IMG/VR virus record: IMGVR_UViG_3300043448_000423
Coordinates: 1 to 64,000 of that record
Source: a virus
Strand: one strand, 5' to 3'
Length of the DNA: 64,000 nt
Below the pieces are notes generated by a model, which saw nothing but the letters and a program-made list of their open reading frames with translations, was not told where the DNA came from and made no database searches. The translations under genes and the position numbers were made by a program. This document shows positions 2,161 through 3,446 of the stretch, in pieces (position 1 is the first letter of the stretch; the number at the start of each line of letters is the position of its first letter).

Positions 2161-2237
2161 CATGTTGCGTAGGAGGGTTGATAAAGTCAAACCTAAACAT
2201 GGATTAACACTGAGTAAAACATTCAGCCTCCTACGCA
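2161..2237 (+). ncRNA. Candidate structured RNA with a three-way junction
   Basis: The closing stem is 11 perfect base pairs (2166-2176 with 2227-2237, TGCGTAGGAGG/CCTCCTACGCA). Inside it are two hairpins: 2177-2181 with 2187-2192 (one bulged A, 5-base loop) and 2210-2215 with 2221-2226 (one G-U pair, 5-base loop). A 16-base single-stranded linker joins them. Within the linker, 2196-2201 (AACATG) is complementary to 2161-2166 (CATGTT), just 5' of the main stem, so a pseudoknot is possible, competing for one base pair. No terminator T-run follows. It is not a tRNA: there is no T-arm and no anticodon arm. It could be a riboswitch or leader RNA for the genes at 2301 onward, or an independent small RNA. 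Confidence 0.5.
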
Positions 2238-2543: not shown

Positions 2544-3446
2544 ATGATTCTAATTGATATGAATCAGATTATGATTAGTAATCTGATGATGCAACTGAAG
2601 GGCGATGCTCTTAATGAAAATCTTGTTCGTCATATGGTGCTTACTGCCCTTCGTGCATTTGAAAAACAATACTCTCCTAAGTATGGAGAGATTGTTCTTG
2701 CATATGACAGCAAGCATTACTGGCGAAAAGAGGCATTCCCTTATTACAAACAGAATAGAAAGAAAGACCGAGAGGCATCCGACTTAGATTGGAATGCTAT
2801 CTTTGAGGTCTTGAATAAAATACGCGACGAGATTAAAACTTACTTCCCATACAAAGTGGTTGAAGTATATGGTGCAGAAGCTGATGATGTCATCAGCACT
2901 CTCACTACCTATCAAGCGTATCGCAACATCAAACTTCAGAAAGAAGGTGAGGACGGCGAAGAAGTATTGATTCTCTCAGGTGACAAGGATTTTATTCAGC
3001 TACAGAAGTATCCTTTTGTAAAGCAATACAATCCTATTCTGAAGAAAGAAATTAAACATGCAGACCCTAAAGCATATGCCCGAGAACATATCATTAAAGG
3101 AGATAAGTCAGATGGCATACCTAACTTCTTATCTGATGCTGATACATTTGTGGTAGGTAAGAGACAGAAACCTATAAGTAAGAAAAACTTAGAAAAGTGG
3201 GTTAACCAAGACCCGTCTGTATTCTGTCTAGACCAACAAGCAAGAGAAAATTATGAGCGTAATCGGAAATTAATCGATCTTACCTGCATTCCTGAACATC
3301 TTGCAACCGAAATTGTATCTTGTTACAAGTCACTAAATAGCAACGAAAGGAAAGTTCCGCTTGAATACTTTCAACAGCATCAACTCACTAAGTTGATGGA
3401 GGAATTTGTATTCCGTAATACACAACCACATTTTGAGGTGAAATAA
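2544..3446 (+). CDS. rnh: RNase H (5'-3' flap nuclease, FEN family)
   Basis: 300 residues, the size of T4 RNase H (305). It removes RNA primers and flaps during lagging-strand synthesis. The metal-binding acidic residues are visible in order: D5 (LIDMN), D55 (LAYDSK), YGAEADDV (E112, D114, D115), SGDKDF (D147, D149) and GDKSDGIPNF (residues 186-195), the last marking the helix-hairpin-helix region. In T4 this gene also lies upstream of genes 33 and 32, as here. The start follows the previous stop directly. Confidence 0.93.
   Translation: MILIDMNQIMISNLMMQLKGDALNENLVRHMVLTALRAFEKQYSPKYGEIVLAYDSKHYWRKEAFPYYKQNRKKDREASDLDWNAIFEVLNKIRDEIKTYFPYKVVEVYGAEADDVISTLTTYQAYRNIKLQKEGEDGEEVLILSGDKDFIQLQKYPFVKQYNPILKKEIKHADPKAYAREHIIKGDKSDGIPNFLSDADTFVVGKRQKPISKKNLEKWVNQDPSVFCLDQQARENYERNRKLIDLTCIPEHLATEIVSCYKSLNSNERKVPLEYFQQHQLTKLMEEFVFRNTQPHFEVK

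Follow-up and report, generated by a model that had tools for sequence, protein, structure and literature searches.

A Candidate Structured Late Leader Nested Within a Small Conserved Gene of T4-Like Cyanophages

Introduction

Stem-loops at the 5′ terminus stabilise bacterial mRNAs, as in the ompA type of Escherichia coli. The cyanophage element described here would share with that type a structure close to the 5′ end (predicted in our case), but the ompA type is one tight hairpin, whereas the main arms of the present fold lie about 50-60 nt apart.

The nearest comparator that we found is the leader of the T4 lysozyme gene e, in which late promoters are embedded in a structured RNA region (reviewed in PMC3014915). 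The likeness is in the arrangement: late promoters sit within a structured region before a gene, and early and late transcripts differ in their 5′ part. In gene e, however, a transcript that starts late lacks one strand of the structure, and translation is thereby freed. At the cyanophage locus both the ATAAATA (2141-2147) and the expected start (about 2153) lie 5′ of the two arms, so that late RNA would retain the fold and, on this predicted start, would lose no strand in the manner of gene e. The cyanophage region differs further in being a conserved gene itself. Cyanophages also possess conserved structured RNAs in the likely 5′ leaders of their genes, namely manA, wcaG and PhotoRC-II (PMC2864571), which differ from the present element in sequence and structure and were not described within coding sequence; no match to any of the three was found in our window or in the relatives scanned. 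Finally, phage S-PM2 has CfrI, an RNA of about 225 nt that is antisense both to psbA and to the gene for a homing endonuclease (PMC2984593). It resembles our candidate element in being a cyanophage regulatory RNA near psbA, but CfrI is antisense, whereas the present element is sense and lies about 1 kb beyond psbA.

The window, by which we mean the whole stretch of DNA analysed, comprises 64 kb of a 70,070-base IMG/VR virus record, and the genes found in it (psbA, speD, glutaredoxin, rnh) are those of a T4-like cyanophage. We argue that the interval 2161-2237 belongs to a small gene within which both a late promoter and a folded RNA are probably encoded, such that a late start would yield a folded leader of the next gene, phrog_275. 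By its anatomy the element would work like a structured leader, and it matched none of the named RNA families. Our search of the literature found no account of an internal promoter or a folded RNA for this gene family (PHROG 4685/T4-GC 868).

The Small Gene Under the Interval

A sequence-only reading of this DNA had presented the interval as an unassigned RNA in a gene-free gap upstream of a membrane protein gene and rnh. The gap proved illusory, since the interval lies inside a conserved ORF of 65 amino acids (MNNLRDQEGNQKLQINKGIEFMLRRRV...; 2099-2296, + strand) that overlaps the end of orf116 (1798-2148); the element is thus overprinted on a protein-coding gene and is not intergenic. The PHROG 4685 profile matches this ORF with an E value of 2.2e-18 over profile positions 2-52 of 54, and both this match and the gene order (nrdC side, ORF, phrog_275) place it in PHROG 4685, equivalent to T4-GC 868. 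By blastn the interval gave chance-level matches only among phages; tblastn with the ORF found 67 phage records. Each of the 172 unique relatives keeps this frame uninterrupted, and neither of the two remaining sense frames is ever consistently open. The DNA that precedes 80 relatives of the small membrane protein gene also aligns with codon-sized gaps that keep the frame. We accordingly rejected the idea that a further overlapping ORF imposes the codon constraint described below. Counterparts are annotated as genes in S-PM2 (as T4-GC 868), Syn1 and SynMITS9220M01. The interval is almost certainly part of a small conserved cyanophage gene that had been overlooked, and a stretch that the eye takes for a gene-free gap can turn out to be a small gene that was missed, with a real RNA signal in it all the same.

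The encoded protein is small and rich in arginine and lysine, with a helix and a beta-hairpin predicted in a low-confidence model; no PDB relative was found by sequence. An in-frame ATG at 2162-2164 (+ strand; MLRRRV...) may serve as the start of a shortened late product. It is present in 84/84 sequences from lineages of one type (INK) versus 0/88 from those of the other (INR). Annotation of the gene is inconsistent: it is unannotated though present in Sf-CH11 and ACG-2014e (L292, L296), and is annotated from this internal ATG in Sf-FR1, S-MbCM7, S-WAM2 and one ACG-2014j record.

The Probable Nested Late Promoter

The late-promoter-like sequence that had been noticed just 5′ of the interval is indeed there, as AATAAATA at 2140-2147. 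Its core, ATAAATA (2141-2147, + strand), lies within the ORF and agrees with the cyanophage consensus NATAAATA, which is the late promoter of S-PM2 (PMC2984593). A TATAAATA-like sequence, as in T4-type late promoters, thus stands upstream of the expected transcript, whose start is predicted by analogy with T4 at about 2153. The motif [A/C]TAAATA is found in every one of the 84 INK-type sequences. Its isoleucine codon is ATA in 81/81, the remaining three sequences reading CTA (Leu), and genome-wide in Syn1 ATA makes up 6.7% of isoleucine codons. Among 38 clusters with less than 80% amino-acid identity, synonymous conservation is likewise high at ATA AAT.

The INR lineages serve as a natural experiment, since their promoter is displaced by 21 bases and the constraint on codons has followed it. 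In 85 of the 88 INR-type sequences CTAAATA is found 21 nt upstream, on Leu-Asn codons; one of the remainder has the promoter 24 nt upstream, and two (L074, L078) have TATAAATA. In this type the isoleucine codon is unconstrained (ATC 30, ATT 30, ATA 26). Across the window ATAAATA is depleted, with 11 sites against 25.5 expected, which is consistent with its being a signal. We therefore regard it as very likely, judging from these codon patterns, that a late promoter is embedded in the PHROG 4685 ORF. Several other + strand ATAAATA sites of the window stand shortly 5′ of gene starts, at 1172 (speD), 11945 (gene start 11979) and 27410 (27456).

The Main Stem

The most prominent feature of the interval is the perfect closing stem that the sequence-only reading described, in which 2166-2176 (arm A, TGCGTAGGAGG, + strand, with the conserved core AGGAGG(G) at 2171-2177) pairs with 2227-2237 (arm B, CCTCCTACGCA, + strand, with the core (C)CCTCCT) over 11 bp without mismatch. 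The stem is present in the minimum-energy fold of 2141-2300, whose energy of -41.1 kcal/mol gives a z of -3.2 against dinucleotide shuffles, and it ranks among the top few in a scan of all window pairs.

The leading rival to an RNA role is that this is a plain coding gene whose stem is a by-product of purine-rich arginine codons facing pyrimidine-rich leucine and serine codons. The ORF is real, codons for RRR are by nature complementary to those for SLL, and most stem pairs are invariant in the window's own clade: among 26 close relatives 99.3% of pairs are kept and 7/11 never vary, so that support for the stem comes from more distant relatives. Against this account, the arms exceed synonymous nulls in which the protein is held exactly. 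Of the synonymous-codon shuffles of the window sequence, 1-3% attained its fold energy and 0.3-0.7% its best helix. When one arm was fixed and the other redrawn with synonymous codons from Syn1 usage, arm A beat the null at p<0.05 in 27/31 clusters and arm B in 13/31. Codon permutation put the mean z of fold energy at -1.98 across 31 INK clusters and at -1.73 across 7 INR clusters, compared with -0.64 across 114 control ORF stretches. Synonymous conservation in the 38 clusters is uneven, being high at AGG AGG in arm A and peaking at the CTC leucine codon of arm B (observed/expected 3.1); AGG accounts for only 4-6% of arginine codons in Syn1 and the window, yet is near-invariant in arm A.

The arms also co-vary, a further point against the by-product account. 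Pairing is better between two arms of one genome than between arms exchanged among genomes (p 2e-4, or 8e-4 when each 70% cluster contributes a single sequence), a signal that comes from one subclade because the arms hardly vary in the other, marine, subclade; co-variation is absent within the INR clusters and within the invariant marine subclade. When pairs were counted on an alignment that had been made without regard to the fold, 92.6% were paired against 59-73% for slid controls, with a covariation score matched by 1/500 shuffles. RNAalifold gave no consensus stem on the INKG alignment, owing to register shifts between clades. In a held-out test, 13 sequences of cultured phages that had played no part in the discovery all carried ATAAATA and the in-frame ATG, with a mean z of -2.03 and a combined fold-energy p of 1e-9, although P values of this kind presume more independence than related phages have and should be read as strong, not literal. 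One clade of cultured phages, LRGA (S-CAM4, ACG-2014e, S-RSM4), has a weak A:B stem. Conserved pairing with co-variation, as expected of a leader RNA, is therefore found for the main stem, with support that is uneven among clades; homologous intervals do not lack compensatory changes here, as the arms co-vary across lineages. On these comparisons, the stem has very probably been selected beyond the demands of protein coding, and a by-product without RNA role is unlikely.

A second rival, which we consider improbable, holds that AGGAGG acts as a ribosome-pausing element, an internal Shine-Dalgarno sequence or a GGAG-type nuclease target, with pairing secondary. GGAGG is retained in 152/172 unique relatives, even with other amino acids (ACA GGA GGA in L074) and where pairing is weak, and T4 RegB does cut GGAG, coding sequences included; structure, however, inhibits RegB (PMC3014915). 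This account also leaves the conserved CTC codon of arm B and the co-variation unexplained. Its Shine-Dalgarno version was rejected, with a start codon 4-12 nt downstream in 0/38 clusters.

The Predicted Late Leader and Its Possible Role

Selection on both promoter and stem fits best with a late leader, and the INR lineages again bear on the matter. There, a second and different short hairpin starts about 10 nt 3′ of the shifted promoter (ACCCAC-loop-GTGGGT, with variants such as CCCCGA/TCGGGG and CCTC/GAGG). It uses the glycine codon GGG, which elsewhere in these genes occurs 1 time in 97, and 34/54 distinct versions beat the synonymous null. Both promoter positions thus have structure near the predicted new 5′ end, and this is our main reason to prefer a late-leader role.

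In Syn1, ATAAATA precedes the start codon by 35-47 nt at gp8, gp13, gp18, gp20 and gp22, compared with 159 nt to the next gene's start at the PHROG 4685 locus, where the first base of ATAAATA is Syn1 position 185129 and from which a long leader would result. The 110 nt that follow ATAAATA at this locus are the most structured of 45 such sites in Syn1 (z -3.96 against a mean of -0.51), and structure is therefore a property of this site and not of late leaders generally. Downstream of the interval in the window come AAGGAG (2288-2293, + strand), the likely ribosome-binding site of the next gene; phrog_275 (2301-2543, + strand), a small membrane protein gene of 80 amino acids whose best hit lies in a neighbourhood of T4-GC 312 type; and rnh (2544-3446, + strand), a 5′-3′ exonuclease of the T4 RNase H type. 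In S-CAM4, Sf-CH1b and S-MbCM7 (L290, L294, L295) a gene other than rnh follows phrog_275. The constant downstream partner of the leader is therefore phrog_275, not rnh.

We propose that transcripts from the nrdC side would give the full-length PHROG 4685 protein, and that the late-transcription machinery of the phage, of the gp55/gp33 type, would begin RNA synthesis inside the gene, at about 2153, once infection is well advanced. The late transcript would begin with the fold, as a 5′ leader of about 150 nt for phrog_275 (then rnh, in this virus). That late transcripts provide phrog_275 with a folded 5′ leader seems to us a reasonably likely outcome of this arrangement. The most likely role for a structure near the new 5′ end would be to slow 5′-end-dependent decay, to set translation of the late message, or both; we put forward this specific effect on late-mRNA stability or translation more tentatively than the leader itself.

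Should the late start and fold be confirmed, a protein, a late promoter and an RNA structure would be packed in about 100 bases across T4-like cyanophages, adding a structured late leader to phages with little-known post-transcriptional control. The same short stretch appears to serve two ends: it encodes a protein, and its unusual codons keep a promoter and an RNA fold.

Other Pairings and Less Likely Functions

The remaining parts of the fold first drawn for this interval fared less well than its closing stem. CATGTT at 2161-2166 is complementary to AACATG at 2196-2201, as the proposed pseudoknot demands, but the pairing is not conserved, and no two-sided change in either the pseudoknot or hairpin 1 was found among the 26 close relatives. 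Hairpin 2 is 85% paired, its outer pair being broken in 13/26 of these relatives. With no convincing compensation in this set, the pseudoknot and the two inner hairpins were rejected; the three-way junction as drawn is not conserved. An inner hairpin of many relatives, P3, co-varies, yet not beyond synonymous shuffles, and was likewise set aside.

Arm B has a further potential partner in segment C (GGAGGTTGA, 2270-2278, + strand), which can pair with TCAGCCTCC at 2223-2231 in place of arm A. The B:C pairing is possible in many relatives and co-varies overall and in one subclade; it shows no co-variation in the marine subclade and does not clearly exceed the synonymous null, so it stands as a weak possibility. 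It enters a third rival, a translational operator by which the basic protein would bind its own message in autoregulation, or ribosome passage would toggle A:B against B:C, to control phrog_275. A small Arg/Lys-rich protein of predicted helix and beta-hairpin would suit the first version and the dual partners of B the second, but the protein model and the B:C signal have the shortcomings already given, and we consider an operator doubtful. We see a similarly slim chance for a two-state switch in the coding sequence, in which B (CCTCC) would pair with A or C, ribosome passage or the internal late start would set the helix and hence phrog_275 output, and lineages with the internal promoter would also make the shortened MLRR... 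protein.

A stand-alone small RNA or metabolite riboswitch is very improbable: the region is structured and has a promoter just upstream, but there is no terminator before the next gene, no Rfam match, and a sequence constrained as protein that leaves no unconstrained aptamer-like core. The terminator scan found none between 1160 and 2672, with terminator-like sites only at 1143-1160 and 2672-2690, and the small RNA with its own role that had been suggested is therefore unlikely. Rfam at both gathering and loose thresholds returned nothing relevant in or near the interval, glutamine riboswitches included, nor was a tRNA found there, in agreement with the sequence-only reading. That reading had also offered "a riboswitch or leader RNA"; the conserved fold and the upstream late promoter favour the leader, while nothing points to ligand binding, and on present evidence the element is not a riboswitch. 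A glutamine-II riboswitch (RF01704) does occur in one relative (L148, 1809-1865), about 1 kb beyond its PHROG 4685 gene.

Two further pairings were noticed in passing. In L049, L052 and their relatives, the 3′ end of the ORF carries AGAGAGTTT (RREF codons), complementary to AAACTCTCT just before the ribosome site of the next gene, a possible further stem. The site at 1143-1160 of the window, after psbA, is a terminator-like hairpin, AGGAGGGGCAACCCTCCT, followed by a T run; its arms share the AGGAGGG/CCCTCCT core of the main stem, which may be coincidence.
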